Source of the DNA: Nonomuraea sp. NBC_00507
GTDB lineage: Bacteria > Actinomycetota > Actinomycetes > Streptosporangiales > Streptosporangiaceae
NCBI RefSeq assembly: GCF_036013525.1
Contig: NZ_CP107853.1
Location: 3,286,001 to 3,350,000 of the forward strand
Direction of reading: 5' to 3'
Length of the DNA: 64,000 nucleotides
This document shows positions 2,920-13,773 of the stretch, one piece after another. The notes beneath the pieces are model-generated. The model was given only the letters and a program-made list of their open reading frames with translations. It was not told the origin of the DNA and searched no databases. Position 1 is the first letter of the stretch. Each line of letters starts with the position of its first letter. Both the position numbers and the translations under genes were made by a program.

Positions 2920-2927
2920 CCCAGAAG

Positions 2928-3806
2928 TCAACTACCACCGGCCGAAGCCGGTGGCTTGCTCTCACGGTCCCGTCTGGCTGAAGGGAGGCCGGTAGCGTGC
3001 GGCTGGTTGACAGCAGCCCAGCCCGCATCACCGCGTACGGCGACGTTGCGGGCCGCGACGTGGTCGGCGTGCCCAGCGAGGCCACAGCCGGTGCAGAGGA
3101 ACCGGCCCCGGGCGGGCCGGTTCGCTCTGGAGACGCACCCGCAGTCGGGCAGGCCTGGGAGGTGTAGGCGGGGTCGACCAGCATGAAGGCGATCCCGGCC
3201 CGCGCGGCCTTGTAGCGGGTGAAGTCGATCAGCTGGGCGAAGGCCCAGCCGTGCAGGGTGCGCCGCTGGAGCCGGTGAGCCCTTGCCCGGCCGCGGATGC
3301 CCCGGAGGTCCTCCAGGGCGATGCCGCGGCCGGTGCGTTCGGCTTCGCGCACCACGTGTTTGCTGATTTGGTGGTTGATGTCGGTCATCATCCGGTGCTC
3401 GCGCCCGGACAGGCGGCGCAGCACCCGCCGCGCCGCAGGAGTGCCCTTCTTCTGCAAACGCCGGCGCTGCCCGATGCCTGCGCTCCCGCAGGCCGCGCAC
3501 ATGTCCGTTGCCGTGGATCGGCCCGGGCAGCGCCGGGCCGAGCAGCACCGCGCCGTCGTTGGTGACGGCCAGGTTCGCCAGCCCTTGGTCCACCCCGAGG
3601 ACGCCGTTGACCGGCTCGCGCACCGCCGGTTTGGGCAGGGTGACGGCGACCTGCAGCAGCCACACCCCGCGCCCCAACCCCGACCCCGACCCGGAGGAGC
3701 AGGAGGAAGGGGACGATGGCGGCTGGTCGCTGCCGTCGCTGGCGGTGTTCGCGGAGCAGATCGGCGCTCGCGGCGGGTGGGTGATCCCGGCGACGGTGGA
3801 GATCAC
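2928..3806 (-). pseudogene. TnpB (IS200/IS605 OrfB, RNA-guided nuclease) relic, frameshifted
   Basis: The RuvC-type core of a TnpB protein is spread over different frames. The first frame gives GVDQGLANLAVTNDG (RuvC-I Asp). A second gives RRRLQKKGTPAARRVLRRL, IALEDLRGIR (RuvC-II Glu) and VDPAYTSQACP. Back in the first frame come DCGCVSRANRP, FLCTGCG (second CxxC of the zinc finger) and HADHVAARNVA (RuvC-III Asp). At least two single-base shifts, near 3450 and within the zinc finger near 3145, inactivate it, and the N-terminal domain is not recognisable. All three catalytic acids remain legible, so decay is recent. It ends beside a right-end hairpin at 2935-2954. Confidence 0.85.
2935..2954. 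repeat. IS200/IS605-type right-end hairpin
   Basis: CCACCGGC-CGAA-GCCGGTGG forms a perfect 8-bp stem at the 3' end of the TnpB relic, overlapping its last codons and just inside a TCAAC motif (2928-2932). IS200/IS605 elements end in subterminal imperfect hairpins recognised by TnpA, and the TnpB guide RNA overlaps this end. The left end was not located. Confidence 0.55.
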
Positions 3807-3871
3807 GCGGTTGTTGGGTCGGGCGGCGCGGTGCTGACCTTGCGCTCAGTCCGTTTCCCCTGGTCCACGCC

Positions 3872-4417
3872 TCAGCCGCCGAAGTCATGGGTGAGGTAGG
3901 TCCAGCCGGTTGTGGCGTTGTAGTAGACACCTACGCCGTGGTTGGTGAGGGCACAGTTGTTCAGGTTGGCGAGGTGGGTGGGGCTGGTGCTCCAGAACTG
4001 CCAGGCGGGGCCGATGGCATCGGCGGGTTTGCCCTGGTACCAGTAAGCGTTCTCAGCCTGGGTGTTGAAGCCGAGCGCCTTCTTGATTCTGCCGTCCTGG
4101 CCCCATGGCAAGGTATCGTCTGAGCCGATGTGGCCTCGGCGGTTGTCGTTCTCGCCGTACTTGTCGATCGGCGCGGCGTGGTGCTCCGCCAGGTCCCTAC
4201 TGTGCGCTCGTGCCAGGTCGCGAAGGCCGGTGTTCGCCTGCTGCGTCGAACAGTGCCGCCCCAAGCGGTGGTTCAGGTAGTGAATCCCCACCGCCGTCTC
4301 CTGCGTTTCGTAGTACCCCGATGACGGCCCGGATGGTCCCGGCGCCGGATCGCAGCTCTCCGCCGAGCTACCGACAACTGCCAGCACCACCAGCGACGCG
4401 GTCATTCGCCTGCCCAT
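3872..4417 (-). CDS. Secreted CAP-domain (SCP/YkwD-like) protein
   Basis: A 181-residue exported protein. The ATG at 4417 is chosen because AGAGGGG precedes it at normal spacing. Residues 1-20 (MGRRMTASLVVLAVVGSSAE) form a signal peptide; the following Cys is not in a canonical lipobox. The CAP fold is recognised from NTGLRDLARAHSRDLAEHH, RGHIGSDDTL, AENAYW and the C-terminal AWQFWSTSPTHLANLNNC plus GVGVYY. The His residues correspond to the family's conserved cavity. Function in bacteria is mostly unknown; some bind or cleave extracellular ligands. It is the first of four minus-strand genes alternating with plus-strand phage remnants. Confidence 0.85.
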   Translation of the reverse strand: MGRRMTASLVVLAVVGSSAESCDPAPGPSGPSSGYYETQETAVGIHYLNHRLGRHCSTQQANTGLRDLARAHSRDLAEHHAAPIDKYGENDNRRGHIGSDDTLPWGQDGRIKKALGFNTQAENAYWYQGKPADAIGPAWQFWSTSPTHLANLNNCALTNHGVGVYYNATTGWTYLTHDFGG

Positions 4418-4514
4418 ATCCGGTCCCCTCTGCCGATGCCTCCGACAGCCAGGGTTCATCGCCCGACGACAGACCGCATGAGTAGCCCCTACTCATACGC
4501 AGTGTTCGTGGGTT

Positions 4515-5698
4515 GTGACAGGCGTCGCTGACGTGGCTGGCCGGCTTCCTGCGGGGTCCATGCGTCCGCTAGGGGGACGGATTGATCGCCGCGGGTGTGT
4601 GGAGCACCGGTCAGAGCAGACCAGTGCGCGCATGTACGTCTACCGGGCGGCGGAGGAGGTGGCCACCGGCGGGTTGTTCGCCCTGATCGGCCCTACCGGC
4701 GTCGTGTCGAAGGCGTGGATGTTCCCGGGTGGCGTCATCGACATCTACACCGGGTCCGCAGGGTGCACGTCGTGGGCAGTTCGCTGGTCGTCCCGGTCGG
4801 GCAGTGGGCGCGCGTCGAGTGGCGGTACACGATCAACGGGGCCGGTAACGGCACCGTCGAAATGTGGATCTACCTGTCCGCCGACTCCGCCGTTCATGAC
4901 GACTACGTGATCTCTTCCACCGTCGCGTGGCCGGGTGGTAAGCCTCGGGACGCCGAGTTCCACATCCATTGTGACTCCGCCAGCCAGCGGTACATCGACG
5001 ACATCGCCGTATCCGACGTCAAGCTCGGGTCGGCGCTGTCGCAGATCGTCGCGCCTGTCGGCAGGGTCACCGAGTCCGATGTGGCGCGGCCCGTCACGGC
5101 TCGCAAGGTCAGGCTGGTCGGCCCGGCCGCCAGCACGGATGCGGCGCTGCCGATCCGGGCGGTCAAGGTGCTGCCGGTCGGCCAGGTCGTCGAAGCCGAC
5201 GCTGCGAGCTTGGTTGCGAGGCGGAAGGTCCGGACGGTGGGCCGGGCCGGCGAAACGGGCTCGGCCGCTCAGGTCAGGCCCGCGCACCGCCGGATCATCG
5301 GGCAGGTGACGGAGGCCGACACTGCGGCAGCGGTCACAGGCGACGCCGGTGCCGCGCTCGGCCGCGTCGTCGAGACTGATCTCGCGCTGCCGATCCGGCC
5401 CGTCAAGCTGCGGCTCCTCGGGCAGGCGCTCGACGTGAGTGCGGCAGTCGCGGTCCGGCCCGCCCACGCCCGCACGATCGGCCAGGCCAGCGAGTCCGGC
5501 CTGGCGCATGCGGTCGGCCGCCGCAAGATCCGCCTCGTCGGGCGGAGCGTCGAAACCGATCAGGCCCGGCCGCTCAGGCAGCTCGGCCGCGACATCACCA
5601 GCGTGGACGGGCCGCGCCGCATGTGGAGCGCCACCCCGACGCGGCGGCAGTGGAGCGCTGACCCGCCTCGCCGTACCTGGTCCGCCTCCCGCGCGTAA
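4515..5698 (+). pseudogene. Phage structural protein with LamG-like domain and nine 20-residue repeats (frameshifted)
   Basis: The upstream frame reads MYVYRAAEEVATGGLFALIG and AWMFPGGVIDIYTGSAG up to about 4760. A +/-1 shift then continues VVGSSLVVPVGQWARVEWRY, typical of LamG/concanavalin-like phage proteins, through YIDDIAVSDVKLG. From about 5060 to 5600 come nine consecutive 20-residue units of the form G-x-V-x-E-x-D-x-A-x-P-V-x-x-R-K-x-R-x-V (for example GRVTESDVARPVTARKVRLV), then a WSATPTRRQWSADPPRRTWS tail. Such repeat proteins occur in virion or tail gene clusters of actinobacterial siphophages. The frameshift makes it non-functional as a whole. Confidence 0.65.
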
Positions 5699-5842
5699 AA
5701 ACATGGTTTTGGACGCTGAGTCGATCATTTTTTATCTTGCGGTCGCAGCCACTCCACCGGGACGTCGGCTGCCTACAGCGGCCTGTCGTGGTCGTGAGTG
5801 AGTGGAGTAGGTGGATCCACTAGCGGCTCCGGAGCGCGGAAC

Positions 5843-6205
5843 TCAGCAGCTCTTCACTTTGTCCAGCCACCACCCGTTATAGTCGATGATCTTCCATCCG
5901 TAGGCGGGTACGGTCACGCATTTGTCCGGCCCCACCTTGATGACGAGCTTGACCCTGGCCGGACGTGAGCAGTAGATGTTGTCGAGGTGGATGTCCTTGA
6001 GTAGCCGATCGTCTCTTATATATAGGCATCCGTAGTAGCCTCCGTCCTCCCATCCCGCCTGCCGCGTGGGCCCGAGGCTGTTGGCCCCGCTGCGGTCGGC
6101 TTGAGCCGACGCCGTCGTCATGCACAGGAGGGTGGCGGTCGCGGCGACAGTCGCGGTGCCCGCCCGCACCAAGCCGCGCATGCGATGCGTTCCTTTGTCG
6201 TTCAT
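5843..6205 (-). CDS. Small secreted protein of unknown function
   Basis: A 120-residue protein from an ATG at 6205 preceded by GGAGGA. Residues 1-37 contain a basic n-region (MNDKGTHRMRGLVRAG) and a hydrophobic core ending ASAQA, a clear Sec signal peptide with likely cleavage after AQA. The mature part is about 80 residues with four cysteines (GCLYIRDD, NIYCSRPARVKL, GPDKCVTVPAYGW and the C-terminal KSC), suggesting two disulfides and a small beta-rich extracellular domain. No family recognised. It lies between plus-strand phage gene remnants on the opposite strand. Confidence 0.75.
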   Translation of the reverse strand: MNDKGTHRMRGLVRAGTATVAATATLLCMTTASAQADRSGANSLGPTRQAGWEDGGYYGCLYIRDDRLLKDIHLDNIYCSRPARVKLVIKVGPDKCVTVPAYGWKIIDYNGWWLDKVKSC

Positions 6206-6239
6206 CTGTCCTCCGAAATCTGCAGGGATCGAATAGCAG

Positions 6240-6740
6240 ATCGCACTAAGCCCTACCTGCACGCAGAGCAGAGGTTGAGGCTCAGGGCGCTCAGCAGAAA
6301 GCGGGTCCTTGTCCGAGACCGCTTGCCCGCCGTGCCTATGCCGCCAGGATCGTGGCGGCGAGATTGTTTGGCAGCCCTCATCGGGCAGGCAAACAATGTG
6401 TTTCTTGGAGAACCGGCCCTCCATGTCTCACCAACCCGGTGGCCGCGCGGCATGGACGCCTCGACAGGTGATGGTGACCGTTGGGCGCGGCAGGGCGTGG
6501 TCGTCGTTGACCATGGTCCGGCATGGCGTTGAGGTTGGAACAGCGGGGCGTGGGGCGGTGTAGTCGACCAGCAACTGCTCGCAGCTGGTGGGAAGCGAGG
6601 TGTGACGGGCACCGTGTCGCTTCGGCTGTATACCTTCCGCGTCCGCCTGGGTGTTCTCAGAAGTTATCTCGGGGGTCCTGATCCGGCCTGGATGTGACTC
6701 TTGGCGGCAAACCGCCGCGGCATCGTTGTTGCTTAAGGAG
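6240..6740. other. About 500 bp without a recognisable gene
   Basis: Open frames here on both strands lack ribosome binding sites, family motifs and plausible composition. The region separates a minus-strand secreted protein gene from the next plus-strand phage gene and probably contains decayed phage sequence. Confidence 0.5.
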
Positions 6741-6745
6741 TCCCA

Positions 6746-7042
6746 GTGGAGACGATCTCGTCGCTATCGCTGGAGTGGCTGCCGTTCTGGGTGCACGGCG
6801 CGGCCGGAACGGAGCAGGTGGAGGTCGCGTTCACCGTGCCCGGCGTCGAACCGGTGCCCGGCGACTGGAAGCCGGCCGAGTGGAAGCCGGACTCGGCCAG
6901 CGCGCGGGGCGCGGTCGCGCAGATCCTGTTTGGCCCTGGCGGCACCGTTGCCAAGCCGGACGGCACCTGGCAGGCGTGGGTGCGCGTGACCGCGCCGCCT
7001 CAGCTTCCGGTGCTGCCAGCTGGGCTGATCGACGTCATCTGA
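6746..7042 (+). CDS. Small phage-type protein, unknown function
   Basis: A 98-residue protein starting at GTG 6746, with AAGGAG 5 bases upstream. It reads METISSLSLEWLPFWVHGAA and ends TWQAWVRVTAPPQLPVLPAG then LIDVI. The beta-rich layout with a closing G-T-W-Q-A-W-V-R-V-T and P-V-L-P-A-G is typical of small proteins encoded among siphophage virion genes in actinobacteria. The next phage fragment starts about 65 bp downstream on the same strand. It appears intact, unlike its neighbours. Confidence 0.55.
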   Translation: METISSLSLEWLPFWVHGAAGTEQVEVAFTVPGVEPVPGDWKPAEWKPDSASARGAVAQILFGPGGTVAKPDGTWQAWVRVTAPPQLPVLPAGLIDVI

Positions 7043-7108
7043 CCCCCGCGCGCTTCCGGCCGCCGCCGACACACGTTGCGACCCTTCGAGAACAGAGTGA
7101 GGGCGATC

Positions 7109-7486
7109 ATGCCGCTGCCTGACCATGACCAGGAGTGGCCGCCGCCGCACATCCGGCGCGAGATGCGGCTGTATGAGGAGTGGGGAGCCTGGTACGCGGG
7201 CGACCCTGACCAGCTCGCGCAGGTGTACGGCGCGTCCGGGATGATGCACGGCATCGGCCTGGACCCCAAGGGCTGGGACCGGCCAAGTAAGGGCTTCACC
7301 GGCTGGATCCAGCGTGCGGCCCGCTATTTCTGGGGCACTCCGGTGCCGCTCGGGCAGGTCCGCTCGACGAAGCTGCATGTGCCGATCGCGGGCGACCGCG
7401 GCCGGTCGTGGCGGTGGCTGCGCGGCCGGATCGCGGGGCTGCTGGAGCGAGCGCCGCCACCAGGCCGATCGCGCCCTGCGCGGTAG
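7109..7486 (+). pseudogene. Phage portal protein, N-terminal fragment
   Basis: From the ATG at 7109 (GAGGG upstream) the frame reads MPLPDHDQEWPPPHIRREMR, LYEEWGAWYAGDPDQLAQVYG and FTGWIQRAARYFWG, ending in LHVPIAGD. This resembles the N-terminus of SPP1/HK97-type portal proteins of actinophages (W-x-x-W-Y-x-G-D-x-x-x-L then F-W-G and L-H-V-P-x-A-x-D). After residue about 100 the match ends abruptly and a short Arg-rich tail leads to a stop, so most of the portal is lost by deletion. The identification rests on motif recall only. Confidence 0.5.
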
Positions 7487-7516
7487 TCGCCCGCTTCCTT
7501 CCGCGCATCCCGGACC

Positions 7517-8167
7517 TTGCAGTGGGCGCCGGATGTGCTGCTGGCCGCGCTCCTGGGGGTGCGGCACCGGCTCATGAGCCTCCGCTACCAGGCAGGGAGC
7601 ATCGTCCGCGTCGCCGACGTGACCGTCATCGCCGCCTCCGAGCCTGAGCTGTGGGTCGGCGCCGCCCGCGCCCGCCTGACCGTCGTCGTCGAAGTCCCCG
7701 CGGTGTACTGGCGGGACGAGACGGTCACCACCTGGGAAGGCTCGGCGAACGCCAACGGCCAGACGATCACCACCCTGGCCGGGAGCACCGCGCCCATCAC
7801 CGACTCGCTGATCCGCGTCACCGGCCAGGCCACCAGCATCACCATCCGGGACGTGGCCAAACAGGGCGCGGTCGGCCTGCTCACCGGCGGCTCCAACAGC
7901 ATCACCGCGTCCGAGCGGCTGCTGATCGACGCCGCCGCGATGCGCGCCGCCGTCGTCACCACCGACACCTGGGACCTCGCGACAGGCACCGACCGGACCG
8001 GCGTCATCTCCGTGTTCGGACCCGGCAGCGCGTCACGGTGGATCCACCTCACCCCCGCCGTCGCGGTCGGCGACCCGTTCTCCCGCGCCGTGCTCATCAA
8101 CTGCACCGCCTCCGGCACGACCGCCGCATCCCGGCTGGAGGTCCGGGCGCGGCGCGCGTACCTGTGA
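7517..8167 (+). pseudogene. Phage tail protein (Dit-like), N-terminally truncated
   Basis: A 216-residue open frame from a TTG without a convincing ribosome binding site. It contains RLTVVVEVPAVYWRDETVTT, GSNSITASERLLIDAAAMRA and SASRWIHLTP, a layout typical of the C-terminal half of distal-tail/tail-component proteins (a v-x-f-x-x-P-x-x-Y-W strand followed by a galectin-like domain). It follows the truncated portal fragment by 31 bp, whereas an intact phage would have many genes between portal and tail; this argues for an internal deletion joining the two. The C-terminus seems complete. Confidence 0.5.
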
Positions 8168-8283
8168 TTGAGGCCGTCGTTTGTCCTCCCGGACTGCGAC
8201 ATTGCCCTCCAGTCAGCGTCCACCGAGTGCCGCAACCTGTGTGCAAACGGCGTGCATACTGGAGCACGACTTAAGGGCGGGAA

Positions 8284-8700
8284 TCAGAGGGTGACGCAGG
8301 GCAACCCTCTGCTCTGCACCCCTCCGGGCACGTGGGCCCATCCTTCGGCGCAGACCTTGCCAGGACTGAAGGTGACATACCTGGTCCACTGCCAGCAGTA
8401 GTGGATGAGCTCGCTGTTAACGCTCTTGCCCCCCGGTCCCCAGATACGGAAGTGATACGGTGCGCTCTCGCAGACGTTGGGTCCACCGGGGCGTTTCGTT
8501 GCCCGGGCGTAGACCACGTTGGCCACAGTACGGAACGCCTCGATACAGGTGTAGAGACTGCAGCCACTCTCCGAGGCAACGACGGCCGACCCCGCCACGC
8601 TGCCCGTCGTTACCGCTGCTGCGCCCGAAGGCGCTGCGGCGGTCAGTCCTGCGACGAGCGTGGCTCCGGCCATTGCTGTGAGCAACTTGTTCCGGATCAA
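8284..8700 (-). CDS. Small secreted protein of unknown function
   Basis: A 138-residue exported protein. TTG at 8700 is chosen as start because AAGGAG lies 7 bases upstream and the product then begins with a clean signal peptide (MIRNKLLTAMAGATLVAGLT, then AAAPSGAAA). The mature region holds six cysteines, in SGCSLYTCIEAF, PNVCESAPYHFRIWG, HYCWQWTRY, KVCAEGW and GLPCVTL, implying three disulfides. It has the same architecture (signal peptide plus small Cys-rich domain) as the gene at 5843-6205 but no obvious sequence similarity to it. It lies between two plus-strand phage tail gene remnants. Confidence 0.75.
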   Translation of the reverse strand: MIRNKLLTAMAGATLVAGLTAAAPSGAAAVTTGSVAGSAVVASESGCSLYTCIEAFRTVANVVYARATKRPGGPNVCESAPYHFRIWGPGGKSVNSELIHYCWQWTRYVTFSPGKVCAEGWAHVPGGVQSRGLPCVTL

Positions 8701-8863
8701 AGTAGAACTCCTTTCTCTTACCAAGAGACGATCGATCACGAGGAGGAACAAAACCAGGCCAGCAACCGGGCATTGACCGGACATAAACGTCCAGCTTGGC
8801 CACGCCCGCACGTCGGAGAACAGGCGCTACTCCCGTCGTAGCGCTGCAATCTGGGGAGGGGCG

Positions 8864-10020
8864 GTGCCGTTCGACATCCGCCTCGTCGCTTACGCCCCCA
8901 ACGGCGCACGACTCGGCATCCTCCCGCACCCCCTGGACATCCAGGTCGCCTGGCCTCTCAACGACGTGCCGAGCTTGAAGTTCGCCTACAGCGCGCACGC
9001 AGTCGGAGCCGAACTCGTCGCCGCACCGTGCGAAATAGGCGTCAAGTGGTCAGCGGACGGCAACGTCTGGACAGAGAAGGGCGACGGCCGGTTCCTCCGC
9101 GCCCGCCGCGAAGGCGACCAGCTCGACCTGTCCGGCGTGTGGCGCTTCGACTGCCCCAGCTACCTGTGGGTGCTGAAGAAGGCCGTCACGTACGCGCACG
9201 CCTCCATCGCCCCCGTCAACGGCCAGCGCATGTACGGCTCGCCGACCCCCAACGCCACCGCCGGGTTCATCATGAACTCGCTGCCGACCGAAGCGCAGGC
9301 GCGCGGCGCACTGTCGGGGTTCGCGTGGACGTTCACCGGGTCGCTGGACTCGGCGTCGCTGACGTGGAACCAGACGTTCGGCCTGGGCATCCCGCTCGGC
9401 ACCGACGTGCTCGCGGTCCTGCTCACGCTCGTGGACGCCGGGCTCATCGACATCCGCATGACCAGCCCTCGCATTCTGTCAGCGTGGCGGCCCAGCACCG
9501 CGATCTTCCGCGACCTCACCACCGGAGCCACCCCGGTGGCGCTCGCCGGCGGCAGGGACATCCGCGCCGCGCCCGACGTCGGCACGCTGGAGGACATGGC
9601 CAGCGCGGCGTACGTCGTCGGCGACAGCTCATTCCGCGTCGAGCGGGTCAACGTCGGTACGCCGCTGCCGTGGGGGCGGTGGGAGGTCGGCGTCCGCCAG
9701 GTTGGCGTGACCGAGGCGACGCCGCGAACCTCGTCGGCGACTCGCTGCTCGTGCGCGGCGCGGTCGAGCGGGTACAGCGCACCCGCGAGCTGCTGTTCGC
9801 GAACAACACGCGCTGGCTTCCCTTGCGGGACTACGTGCCCGGCGACCGCATCTACGCGCCCGGCGAGGCGGGGCAGCGTGTCGCGCTGCGGGTACGGCAG
9901 ATCACGCTCACCCGCACCGACCGCGGGGTCGTCGGCGGGAACCTCGTCCTCGATGACCGGCTCGCCGACCAGGAGATCCGGCTGCGACGACGGATCGCTG
10001 GCATGTCGATCAGACCCTAG
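8864..10020 (+). pseudogene. Phage tail protein resembling ReqiPepy6 Gp37, frameshifted
   Basis: GTG at 8864 follows GGGGAGGGG. The first frame reads MPFDIRLVAYAPNGARLGIL, WPLNDVPSLKFAYSA, GRFLRARREGDQLDLSG and SYLWVLKKA, continuing to NVGTPLPWGRWEVGV. Near 9710 the reading shifts to a second frame with ANLVGDSLLVRGAVERVQRT, LPLRDYVPGDRIYAP and QEIRLRRRIAG. The whole matches the long minor tail protein of actinophages that ends in a PGDRI/I-x-A-P hub-like domain. The single shift in VTEATPRTS would truncate the product. A second, shorter copy of its N-terminus lies at 11258-11437. Confidence 0.6.
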
Positions 10021-10034
10021 GCGCCCAGATGCGA

Positions 10035-11210
10035 TCAGAATTTCGTGGTCTCATCAACCCGGGTCTCTTTCCGTATTTCGTCCACTGTGACTCCCCGTAC
10101 ATGCCTCAGGTCCGCGCCGCGCAGGTCCGCGCCAACCAGGTACGTGCCGCCCAGGTCCACGCCGGCCAGGTCGGCGCCGCGCAGGTCCGCGTAGGCAAGG
10201 TCCACGTCAACCAGGTTCGTGCCGCGCAGCTTCGCGCCAGCCAGGTTCGCGCCCGTCAGGTCCGCGTTAAGCAGCTTCGCGCCCGTCAGATTCGCACCGT
10301 TCAAGTTCGCGCTGCGCAGGTCCGCGGCAGCAAGGTCCGTGTCATAAAGGTCCGCGCCGGCCAGATTCAATTGGCGCAGGTCCGCCCTAGCAATACGGGA
10401 CTGGACCAGGTTGGGTCCACGCGTATCTAGGGTGACGTCTCGACGGCCGATGACGGTCAATGCGGCTTGCGCGTCAGTGGCGAGTGCCCCCGGCACACGG
10501 ACGCCGGGCTTGAGCTTGTGGTCGTGCTCGCGAACGAACGCGGCCAGCACCTCGTACACGGTCTGGTGGTCGCGCGGGGAGTCTTTCGCGAGCCGTTCCA
10601 GGGCGTAGATGCCGCCCAGGCGAACGTCCATCTTGGTGGAGCCGAGTTGTTCCACGGCCTTGATGTACCGGTCGGTGATCTGCCCCTGCTCGGCGGTCCG
10701 CTGGGCCTGGCGGGAGGCGTCGAGGGACTGCGCGGTGTACCACAAGCCCTGCGCGGTGAAGACGACACCGCCGATGACGACCAGCCCGGTGGCGGCCTGG
10801 ATCAGGGTGTGGCGGGCAGCGTTGACGGCCTCCACACGTTCTGTGGCGGTCATCTGCTGGCGCTCGGCCTGAGTTAAGGGGTGCTGTTCTCCGGCCAGGC
10901 GGCGAGCGGCTGGCCCGATGAGTGCGGCAATGCCGAGTGTGGAGATCCCGGCCAGGGCGGTACCGGCCAGGATCCAGCGGCCCCAGTCCGGGATGCCCTC
11001 GATGGTCGCTGCCACTCCGGCCCCCACGATCCCCGCCAGCAGAGGTAAGAGCCAGAGCAATCGCCGTAACCATCGTCGTCTCGCCTGAGCTGGCACCGGT
11101 GCTGGGGATGGCGGGATCAGAGTTGCGGCATTGGCCATGCGACGGGCTTTGGCCGTGGTCGCGGCGGCGATGATCTGCCGGGCTGAGGGCGTCGGCTCGC
11201 GGGCTCGCAT
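10035..11210 (-). CDS. Membrane-anchored pentapeptide-repeat protein
   Basis: A 391-residue protein. Residues 45-105 hold two hydrophobic helices (LLWLLPLLAGIVGAGVAATI and WILAGTALAGISTLGIAALI), and another lies near 140-160 (ATGLVVIGGVVFTAQGLWY). A conserved cytosolic segment follows, DRYIKAVEQLGSTKMDVRLG and YALERLAKDSPRDHQTVYEV, seen in many actinobacterial pentapeptide proteins. Residues about 265-375 form a right-handed beta-helix of A(D/N)Lxx repeats, for example ADLRSANLNGANLTGAKLLN. Its role is unknown. The start at 11210 lacks a strong ribosome binding site; Met25 is an alternative. It lies opposite and between two copies of a phage tail gene. Confidence 0.85.
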   Translation of the reverse strand: MRAREPTPSARQIIAAATTAKARRMANAATLIPPSPAPVPAQARRRWLRRLLWLLPLLAGIVGAGVAATIEGIPDWGRWILAGTALAGISTLGIAALIGPAARRLAGEQHPLTQAERQQMTATERVEAVNAARHTLIQAATGLVVIGGVVFTAQGLWYTAQSLDASRQAQRTAEQGQITDRYIKAVEQLGSTKMDVRLGGIYALERLAKDSPRDHQTVYEVLAAFVREHDHKLKPGVRVPGALATDAQAALTVIGRRDVTLDTRGPNLVQSRIARADLRQLNLAGADLYDTDLAAADLRSANLNGANLTGAKLLNADLTGANLAGAKLRGTNLVDVDLAYADLRGADLAGVDLGGTYLVGADLRGADLRHVRGVTVDEIRKETRVDETTKF

Positions 11211-11257
11211 GGCTCTATTGGATCACGCCGACGATCACAACCGTTCCTGGAGGACTC

Positions 11258-11437
11258 GTGCAGGTCATCATCCCCGGCACGCCCGAGCCGTACGCGTTGC
11301 GCCTGGTCGCGCACGCCCCCAACGACGCCAGGTTGGGGACGCTGCCGCATCACCTCGGGTTCGAGGCTGGCCTGCCGCTCAACGACGTTCCCAGCCTGAA
11401 GGTCACGTATCCGGCGGCTGGGGCGGGCGCGGACTGA
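11258..11437 (+). pseudogene. Second Gp37-like tail protein copy, truncated after 59 codons
   Basis: GTG at 11258 has GGAGG upstream. The frame reads MQVIIPGTPEPYALRLVAHA, then NDARLGTLPHHLGF and LPLNDVPSLKVTYPAAGAGA, ending at TGA 11435-11437. It aligns with residues 5-45 of the tail protein at 8864 (same N-D/G-A-R-L-G-x-L-P-H and P-L-N-D-V-P-S-L-K-x-x-Y). Homology stops abruptly where Rhs-like coding sequence begins in another frame, marking a recombination junction near 11430. Confidence 0.65.
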
Positions 11438-13773
11438 CAGCCGTCTGGCTACCCGGCCGGGATCGTGCGCAGGGCGCCGACACGACCTTCACCTACCTGA
11501 TCCGCGCCAACGCGCCGTCGGCGATCACCTCCAGGAAGCTGCTGCCGACCGGCACCAACAAGTACCTGACCTCGGTGACCCTTTTCGACGGCCTGCTCCG
11601 CGAGCGGCAGAACCAGACCCAGGCGGTCGGCGGCGGGCGGCTGATCACCGACACCGTTCGCGACTCCCGGGGCCTGGTCGCCTGGACCTCGGCTCCGTAC
11701 TACCACGACGGCAGCGCGCCGGTCACCACGCTGGTCACTCCGACGACGGCGATCCCGTCGGTGACCGAGAACCATTACGACGGGTCCGGGCGGATCATGG
11801 AGACCGTGCTCAAGGCCAACGGCGTCCCCCGATGGAAAACTGTCACCACCCACGGCGGCGACCGCACCACCGTGGTGCCCCCGGCCGGGGGCACCAAGAC
11901 CGAAAGCCTCCTCGACGCCCGTGGGCGCACAACACAACTGCGGCAGTACCGGACGGGAACGGCCTTCGACGCCACCGACTACACCTACACCGACGGCGGC
12001 GCCCTCGCCTCCGTGACCGACGCCGCCGGCAACGTCTGGCGCTACACCTACGACCAGCGCGGCCGGAAGATCAAGACCGCGGACCCGGACAAGGGCGTCT
12101 CCGAGTCCACCTACGACGCCGCTGGTCAGCTCGTCACCGTCACGGACGCCAGGAAAATCACCCTCGCGTACACCTATGACGCGCTGGGCCGCAAAACCTC
12201 CCTGCGTGACGCGGCCGGCAACCCACTCGCGGAATGGATCTACGACACCGCCGCCAACGGCGTGGGCAAACCGGCCAAATCCATCCGCCACGACGGGGCC
12301 AACCTCTATATCTCCGAGGTCACCGCCTACGACCCGGGCGGTCGCCCCACCGACACGAAGATCACAATCCCGGCGGCCGAGGGGGCGCTGGCCGGGTCGT
12401 ACGCCTTCAGAACCACCTACAACCAGGACGGCCAAATCGACTCCACCACCTCACCCGCCGCCGGCGGCTTGCCCGCCGAGACGCTCACCTTCGGCTACAA
12501 CGCCGTCGGCGCGCCGACCTACCTGAGCGCCGGATCGCAAATCTACGTCAACGACGTGATCTACAATCAGCGTGGTCAGGCGATCCAGCGCATCCTCGGC
12601 CAGGACGGCAAGCGCGTCTGGCAGACCAGCACCATCGATGAGCCGACCGGCCGCACCACGAACTTCTCGGTGGTCCCAGAATTCAAGAGCGAAGTCGTCG
12701 ACTTCGGCTACGCCCACGACGACGCCGGCAACGTGACCCGCATCGCGGACACCCCCAACGGCGGCCAGCCCGCCGACTACCAGTGCTACACCACTGACTA
12801 CCTCCGCCGCCTCGTCGAAGCCTGGACACCGTCCACCGGTGACTGCGCCGCCGCGCGATCGCTGACCGGTCTGGGTGGCCCGGCGAGCTACTGGCACTCT
12901 TACAGCTACAGCCTCACCGGCGGGCGCGACGTCGAGACCTGGCATGCCGCCACGAACACGGTCCGGGACTACGCGCAGCCTCCCCAGGGCGGCGCCGCCG
13001 GCAGCAAACCGCACGCCGTCACCCGTATCGACAAGTCCGGCGCGGCGACCGGCTCGGACACCTTCGCCTACGATGCGGCGGGGAACACCACCAGTCGCAC
13101 GGTCGGCGGCGTCACCACCACCCTGGCATGGGACAAGGAAGGCCATCTCGCGAGCTCCACCCAGGGCGGCCTGACCACCACCAACCTCTACGACGTCGAC
13201 GGCACCCGGATGCTGCGCCGCGACCCCGGCGGCGCCACCCTCTATCTGCCCGGCGGTCTCGAATTACGCCGGACCGGCAGCACGGTGACCGGCACCCGCC
13301 ACTACTCCCATCTGGGTACGGCCATCGCGGTCCGCACCCCGAGCGCCCTGTCATGGACCGCCCAAGACCACCACAACACTACCGAGGCCCTCATCAAGGC
13401 CACCGACCTGAGCGTTTCCCGCCGCCGTACCCTTCCCTTCGGCGGAGTTCGCGGTACGGCTCCCGCCGCGTGGGCCGGCGACAAGGGCTTCGTCGACGGG
13501 ACGAACGATCCGAACGGCCTCACCCACATCGGGGCGCGCGAATACGACCCCGCGCTCGGTGCCTTCATCAGCGTCGATCCCATCATCGACGTCAACGATC
13601 CCCAGCAGATGCATGGCTACGCGTACAGCAACAACAACCCCGTCACCATGACCGATCCGACCGGTCTGCGAGCGTGCGCCGACGACGTGTGCGGGTCCGG
13701 CGGTGCCGCCCCGGTGCCGGTCACGCAGGGTTCGGCGGACCGGTACGCCGACAAGGCGGGCCTGAACTGGTGA
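11438..13773 (+). pseudogene. Rhs/YD-repeat protein, lacking N-terminus and effector end
   Basis: About 778 codons encode YD repeats (RYTYDQRGRKIKTADPDKG, YTYDALGRKTSLRDAAGNPL, FAYDAAGNTTSRTVGG) and the Rhs-associated core (THIGAREYDPALGAFISVDP, then YAYSNNNPVTMTDPTGL). Such proteins form a beta-cocoon shell holding a C-terminal toxin. No start codon, signal peptide or N-terminal domain exists: the frame opens at TAVWLPGRDRA immediately after the truncated phage tail gene. After the core only about 35 residues precede a TGA at 13771-13773, and the same frame continues open afterwards (see 13774-14394). The gene is thus broken at both ends. Confidence 0.85.

Follow-up and report, generated by a model that had tools for sequence, protein, structure and literature searches.

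The window analysed here is a stretch of 64,000 nucleotides from the 12.9-Mb genome of Nonomuraea sp. NBC_00507. Near its left end, between positions 3689 and 11433, lies what sequence comparison identifies as the deletion-scarred remnant of a siphovirus prophage (Table 1; all coordinates are window positions unless a locus is named). Several syntenic genes of one phage lineage can be recognized in it, all on the plus strand: a scrap of a gene for a 91-amino acid (aa) protein, then a LamG-type gene, a small gene, the N-terminus of a portal gene, a Dit-like gene, gp37A and the start of gp37B. Most bear inactivating lesions. Alternating with them, on the minus strand, are four open reading frames (ORFs) of a different kind, which we call cargo: a CAP-like gene, two genes for small cysteine-rich proteins (here ‘5843’ and ‘8284’, after their first positions) and a gene for a membrane-anchored pentapeptide-repeat protein. 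The initial annotation of this DNA had picked out the same alternation, and the four ORFs are where it implied; it began the array at the CAP-like gene, at 3872, whereas the remnant starts earlier, with the phage-gene scrap at 3689. In what follows, L numbers denote loci that we read and G numbers genomes that we compared, G000 being the window's own.

Table 1. Features of the prophage remnant and its immediate neighbours
Feature	Position	Strand	Remarks
Presumed TnpB-type transposase gene, 3' part	2927..3673	-	Matches part of a 410-aa ORF at another site in G079 (93% identity)
Scrap of phage gene (91 aa in L057), upstream of terminase genes	3689..3804	+	Over 3720-3804: 88% to L057, 86% to L056
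CAP-like exported protein, 195 aa as called	3872..4459	-	Low-GC DNA 3805-4674 (0.66)
LamG-type phage protein gene, N-terminal part lost	4675..5698	+	
Small Cys-rich protein, signal-peptide-like start, 120 aa, orphan	5843..6205	-	Slot 5699-6733, GC 0.62
Small phage gene ahead of portal gene, 98 aa, intact length	6746..7042	+	55-83% to five relatives
Portal gene, residues ~1-101 only	7100..7396	+	88% to G061 orthologue (open frame, 528 aa)
Deletion scar	7397..7541	.	Tail chaperone (+), tape measure (inverted), scaffold-like (inverted), portal C-terminal part (+)
Dit-like distal tail gene, residues 86-293	7541..8167	+	75-86% DNA identity to five relatives
Small Cys-rich protein, signal-peptide-like start, 138 aa	8284..8700	-	Dit-to-gp37A slot 8168-8851, GC 0.62
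gp37A, Gp37-like tail-tip gene, one frameshift	8864..~10017	+	
Membrane-anchored pentapeptide-repeat protein, 391 aa	10035..11210	-	gp37A-to-gp37B slot
gp37B, first ~59 residues only	11258..11434	+	
Large RHS gene, 3' part; right junction of remnant	11434..13773	+	Upstream part present in G079

Cargo and phage pieces differ in their state of preservation. All four cargo ORFs are intact versus one of eight phage pieces (Fisher's p = 0.010), a comparison in which the chaperone scrap inside the deletion scar is scored as one phage piece, and which is small and confounded by length, the cargo genes being shorter targets; for the orphan 5843 gene, intactness has no homologue as a yardstick. Good ribosome-binding sites had been ascribed to the minus-strand genes in general. 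Such sites (GAGGGG, GGAGG and AGGAG) do precede three of them, but none is obvious upstream of the pentapeptide gene. The four cargo slots are also poorer in guanine and cytosine (GC), at 0.623–0.673, than the six phage segments, at 0.704–0.730.

The portal ORF encodes approximately the first 101 portal residues and then runs into a scar made of pieces of deleted phage genes. The Dit-like gene has lost its first 85 residues, and gp37A is interrupted by a single frameshift about two-thirds along. The small gene alone has kept its length (98 aa, versus 95–99 aa in five relatives). The portal and tail fragments of the earlier description are real, if more narrowly definable, the tail piece being Dit-like, and both of its Gp37-like tail genes are present, one frameshifted and the other reduced to its start. 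Its LamG assignment comes from a relative: no LamG domain was detected in the window's own copy, but the orthologue in L061 contains Laminin_G_3 (1.1e-9). Matches to PHROGs are weak, and comprise the LamG-type ORF (1.3e-8, to a family of unknown function), the portal piece (1.1e-4) and the CAP-like protein (0.017, to a moron-class family). Rfam and tRNA scans gave no matches, no attachment site or integrase was seen in the remnant, and no second copy of the phage was found in G000, where gp37A, the LamG-type gene and the portal gene have one match each. The two Gp37-like genes share 72% DNA identity over 119 bp; a recent tandem duplication was considered and rejected, because the two lie side by side in relatives as well, and are thus old paralogues.

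Five related prophages, in G059, G060, G061, G062 and G035, display the same gene order—LamG-type, small, portal, capsid to tape measure, Dit, gp37A, gp37B—and their terL, portal, capsid, tape measure, Dit and gp37A genes were called as full-length-looking, with the caveats that the LamG-type match is weak in G061 and gp37B was called in pieces in G035. Measured on G060, some 11.4 kb is missing from the window between portal residue 101 and Dit residue 86; estimated on L057, a further ~2.9 kb is missing between the 91-aa gene and the LamG-type gene. The scar at the portal–Dit join is assembled from four short stretches of what was deleted, two of which are inverted, with successive overlaps of ~6, 14, 2 and 2 bp, and is of the type that end joining with template switching would leave. 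Because the deletions took out the long runs of plus-strand genes that separated the cargo, the alternation looks regular. That regularity, which the initial annotation had thought the unusual feature, is thus exaggerated and largely a product of the deletions.

The boundaries that hold cargo in the window can be inspected in relatives. Relatives of gp37A occur in 15 of the 59 genomes searched, the window's own included. Around relatives of Dit, 58 loci were collected, 29 from named genomes and 29 from virus contigs; 42 of these are distinct and 38 were used, L100 and L127–L129 having been dropped before gene calling. Downstream gp37 is found in 34 of the 38, L092, L094, L116 and L117 being without it. 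One locus, L089, has a 9.7-kb gap filled with unrelated genes, and is excluded from statements about the slot but included in the two counts out of 34 that follow. The gap between Dit and gp37A is no more than 17 bp in 8 of 33 loci and 156–2475 bp in the other 25, in 19 of which it is at least 300 bp and in six only 156–225 bp. Gaps of at least 300 bp are present at this boundary in 20/34 loci, compared with 28/347 pooled over eleven other boundaries (p = 8e-12), the gp37A–gp37B boundary (18/26) having been kept out of the pool since it holds regular plus-strand genes in many loci. Mean GC is 0.610 in the slot and 0.704 in its flanks, and is lower in the slot in 23 of 25 cases (p = 3e-7); both p-values overstate the case, as related loci are not independent events. 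Minus-strand genes were called in the slot in 12/34 loci versus 5/347 elsewhere, four of these five at the tape-measure–Dit boundary, but our home-made gene caller misses low-GC cargo, the 8284 gene itself included, so that these counts are rough lower bounds, and some short ORFs may be false.

The slot is empty in all four of the more distant named loci that have gp37 downstream, those of Allonocardiopsis (L093), Actinokineospora (L096), Saccharothrix (L097) and Longimycelium (L098), and also in Nonomuraea loci L076 and L099 and virus contigs L120 and L124. Its emptiness in distant genera indicates that the hotspot belongs to phages of Nonomuraea and near kin. In the prophages of these organisms, the Dit–gp37A boundary is a cargo hotspot. 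This is a new detail: no earlier description of a tail-tip hotspot in such prophages was found in the literature searched, by titles and the starts of abstracts.

Some of what occupies these boundaries in relatives belongs to known defence families. Minus-strand AbiTii genes fill the Dit–gp37A slot in four loci: L084 and L090, above the Pfam cut-off; L088, at 24.6 bits versus a cut-off of 27.6 (PADLOC E 2e-7); and L091, by membership of the same cluster. The slot in L087 includes a DUF6294 protein with a signal-peptide-like start, and in L119 the gp37A–gp37B interval holds a plus-strand gene and, after it, a minus-strand gene for a PycTM-type membrane protein. Several inserts, among them that of L082 and the second gene of L087, matched no recognised family. 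G059 alternates as the window does, with a minus-strand DUF6082 gene between the small and portal genes, a microprotein between Dit and gp37A, and a pentapeptide gene between gp37A and gp37B. The small–portal boundary holds extra genes in two of the five relatives, one on each strand. Such families were found only in the cargo of related prophages; of the window's own cargo, the pentapeptide and CAP-like proteins, the two that were tested, had no match in PADLOC. That all Dit–gp37A inserts might be one element was rejected, since only subsets of them are related.

A conserved microprotein of ~32–38 aa is encoded on the minus strand in the Dit–gp37A slot of 8 of the 38 loci: L073, L075 (Nonomuraea sp. 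PA05), L077 (11160–11264), L079, L105, L109 (12463–12579), L111 and L119. An acidic N-terminal part is followed in it by a hydrophobic LLLLQLLLILLDW-like stretch, and the five copies tested have no Pfam match. A minus-strand ORF of 57–62 aa, with an RPPIDV/RPPMDV plus LPAVWPP pattern, recurs in the same slot in L078, L079, L083, L086 and L108. Small minus-strand proteins with signal-peptide-like starts also occur at late-gene boundaries in L119 (9442–9741), L092 (1384–1695) and L087 (10908–11339), and resemble the products of 5843 and 8284.

Accessory phage genes inserted singly at gene boundaries are termed morons, and of the four window genes it is the pentapeptide gene for which this status is well supported. 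In its product, hydrophobic segments precede the pentapeptide repeats (PF00805, 1.2e-35), and homologues occupy the identical slot, on the same strand, in prophages L002 (62% identity) and L005 (60%). The gp37A–gp37B gap is no more than 20 bp in L073, L076, L077, L099 and L105 (and in L095, left out because its gp37A looks broken), and in L072, on the same contig as L003, it is occupied by a different, plus-strand gene resembling that of a membrane protein. L005 retains a scrap resembling the start of gp37B on the far side of its pentapeptide gene, a sign that the cargo may have come in along with a new gp37B allele. A shared mobile boundary of pentapeptide cassettes was rejected, as the gp37B scraps in the window, L206 and L069 end at differing points. 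So was an apparent gp37A scrap beside the pentapeptide gene of G014: the match is to residues 361–406 of the window ORF, past the frameshift, where that ORF overlaps the pentapeptide gene antisense, and no gp37 or Dit scrap was found at G014.

It could be supposed, instead, that host genes inserted independently into a decaying prophage that had carried no cargo at all. Among 20 further close homologues of the pentapeptide gene, 17 have no adjacent Dit or gp37 scrap (contigs end near the gene in L212, L218 and L219), so the gene also lives outside recognisable prophages; indeed, relatives of some kind are present in 187 of 341 genomes of the family (E 1e-8). Such a history is very improbable nonetheless. 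The shared slot and strand in L002 and L005 already contradict it for the pentapeptide gene, and the frequency with which the Dit–gp37A gap is enlarged in relatives speaks against it more generally. The remaining three homologues, in G005, G065 and G152, adjoin gp37 scraps and are parallel cases of cargo that has outlived a vanished phage. The initial annotation had opposed selected morons to repeated insertions into phage gene boundaries, but morons are by definition insertions at such boundaries, and the two options are not exclusive. By the Nei–Gojobori method, without error bars, the ratio of nonsynonymous to synonymous change (dN/dS) of the pentapeptide gene is 0.147 to L173 (the phage-adjacent G005 copy), 0.159 to L178 (the G004 prophage copy), 0.342 to L174 (G014) and 0.373 to L175 (G106), with a maximum of 0.468 over the remaining copies analysed. 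These values indicate purifying selection on the family over its history, not specifically since the prophage died. For the CAP-like gene, purifying selection is more weakly indicated (0.339, to a homologue in G271).

For the 8284 gene, a moron origin is supported by position, in the hotspot itself. At E 1e-3 the gene was found in one of 54 genus genomes, the window's own, and weak matches (30–40%) occur in six other genomes of the 341 in the family; its close relatives are a protein of Nonomuraea sp. NPDC050691 (88%) and a metagenome protein (67%). The three sequences share six invariant cysteines. A sequence search of solved structures at E 1e-3 returned nothing for this family or for the CAP-like protein. 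Judged by eye and with a simple script, both 8284 and 5843 encode export signals, and these, with the positions of the genes, hint at a role in excluding other phages.

For the CAP-like and 5843 genes, a moron origin is only plausible. The CAP assignment is weak: the protein scores 17.6 bits against the Pfam CAP model, below the cut-off of 21.1. Of its three homologues with 60–73% identity, one is named as CAP domain-containing and another (P0008) has a precomputed PF00188 match. An alternative start at 4417 would give a protein of 181 aa with a better ribosome-binding site. The other three genes lie in extra DNA between genes that adjoin one another in related phages; the original slot of the CAP-like gene is pinned only to somewhere between the 91-aa gene and the LamG-type gene. 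The 5843 protein retrieved only itself in a protein search. By eye, we also noticed that a prophage slot of L059 (after terL, minus strand) and L221:8107–8670 contain a similar small membrane-protein frame; the second copy lies ~5 kb from the homologue of the CAP-like gene in G271.

Alternatively, the phage may have brought in no cargo but the pentapeptide gene, with or without 8284, the CAP-like gene, 5843 or both having entered the prophage after its death, as happens in hypervariable chromosomal regions. We consider this a distinct possibility, though not the likelier course. The LamG–small boundary, the slot of 5843, is empty (≤10 bp) in all five relatives, and the 54 genus genomes contain just one relative of 5843 at E 1e-3, a paralogue of 34% identity at a different locus of the window's own genome. 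The CAP-like homologue in G271 (69%), the only one at E 1e-10 in 340 other genomes of the family, lies in 11 kb of sequence in which we recognised no phage core gene. The locus is unstable, moreover, with a TnpB piece, an RHS gene and several indels relative to the conspecific genome G079. Set against this, all four genes run leftward, are flanked by phage pieces and sit in DNA of lower GC, and upstream boundaries are filled in relatives too: the small–portal boundary, as described, and the gap after terL, which is enlarged in 2/5.

Our preferred account, to which we give a probability of roughly 80%, is that the array is a decayed siphovirus prophage of a lineage of Nonomuraea and near kin, and that it carries morons. 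(The figure covers this core; late insertion of the CAP-like and 5843 genes shares the core, and differs on two of the four genes.) What is observed is the phage gene order and strand, the fillable boundaries, the lower GC, and the defence genes in the corresponding slots of related prophages. Cargo genes would have entered singly, between genes of the rightward late operon, and in this case always in the opposite orientation. The leftward genes could then be transcribed in the lysogen while the late operon was silent, and their exported or membrane products might change the envelope or be directed at other phages. Later deletions would have removed the portal-to-Dit and terminase-to-LamG stretches, gp37B would have become fused into the RHS gene, and the cargo would have stayed because deletions that spared it were tolerated or favoured, leaving the apparently regular alternation.

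Several observations weigh against this account, beyond the pentapeptide homologues outside prophages, the empty LamG–small boundary, the G271 neighbourhood and the non-independence of related loci already mentioned. No prophage was found that carries the CAP-like, 5843 or 8284 genes; related prophages with open main structural genes do contain cargo, which is what the initial annotation had proposed to look for, but these three genes were not part of it. The 8284 gene has no match in the other 53 genus genomes, one of them conspecific. Cargo is not exclusively antisense, since extra genes on the plus strand occur in relatives, at 11 loci each at the capsid–c4 and TAC–TMP boundaries, in the small–portal gap of L059, and in the Dit–gp37A slots of L088, L109 and L119. 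Finally, a scan for the sigma-70 consensus, a poor guide in actinomycetes, found no minus-strand promoter-like site; the one such site is on the plus strand (0.5 expected), as are all four terminator-like sites (3.0 expected). On the other side, the minus-strand genes were not seen lying contiguously in any of the genomes searched, an arrangement that the initial annotation had named as fatal to its idea.

A bolder proposal, which we offer tentatively and think unlikely as a whole, is that, in temperate siphophages of Nonomuraea and near kin, the tail-tip boundaries (Dit, gp37A, gp37B) form a dedicated dock for exclusion or defence cargo, much of it antisense, and that 8284, 5843 and the microprotein are new envelope-acting families of superinfection exclusion, swapped along with tail-tip alleles and able to outlive their phage. 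Even short of that, the odd array can be used to test which cargo genes persist after their phage is gone, and for what reason, and the Dit–gp37A hotspot offers an easy guide to undescribed genes for lysogeny and defence in rare actinomycetes.

Grounded prophages are a known phenomenon, as are morons and defence genes carried by prophages. In one account (PMC4378225), morons are single coding regions lying between two genes that adjoin one another in related phages, with a different base composition, and include some lysogenic conversion genes. The window cargo is like them in lying between phage genes and in base composition, as are the Dit–gp37A slots of 23/25 relatives; it is unlike them in being antisense to the late operon of a wrecked phage, and the promoter and terminator that a moron would have of its own are at most putative here. 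Cluster N mycobacteriophages (Butters, and also Sbash and CarolAnn) are described as expressing anti-phage genes of a central variable region during lysogeny (PMC7542560). These, too, are temperate phages of actinobacteria, with defence genes in a variable region, as in the prophages related to ours; theirs is outside the structural genes, whereas here the cargo is inside the run of tail-tip genes. The same account of morons places the accessory genes of Mu-like Pseudomonas phages, some directed against CRISPR/Cas, in a few regions of a conserved core (PMC4378225). Restriction of accessory genes to few slots is common to both cases; phage lineage and cargo differ. The antiviral hotspots of P2 and P4 are also similar. 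Grounded, or cryptic, prophages are described as defective, reduced by deletions, and are said to keep useful genes (PMC6379469). By comparison, the window remnant is very short, and has one end fused into an RHS gene.

That fusion is seen against the conspecific genome G079 (L168, G079:C32), the one genome available for this comparison, from which the segment is absent. The site in G079 is not cleanly empty, but carries a different 12.2 kb, to which the upstream part of the large RHS gene belongs, and so the remnant stands in place of host DNA. At the right end, phage homology reaches 11436 and identity to G079 starts at 11434. The remnant is thus strain-specific, with its right end fused into the RHS gene. 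The juxtaposition of an RHS gene with tail-tip genes and exported cargo might bring to mind a tail-like particle or effector-delivery locus that has been domesticated and still works, with the cargo as secreted effectors. We regard this as barely credible: the LamG-type, portal, Dit, gp37A and gp37B genes are truncated or frameshifted, the remnant lacks the capsid, the tail tube and, apart from one scrap, the tape measure, and the RHS gene belongs to the host locus, continuing upstream in G079, where there is no phage remnant. On the left, the remnant adjoins the gene at 2927–3673, which we take from its sequence to encode a TnpB-type transposase. Viewed as a whole, window 2927–11433 and L168 present a within-species replacement polymorphism, an RHS-bearing 12.2 kb in one strain and a TnpB piece plus prophage wreck in the other.

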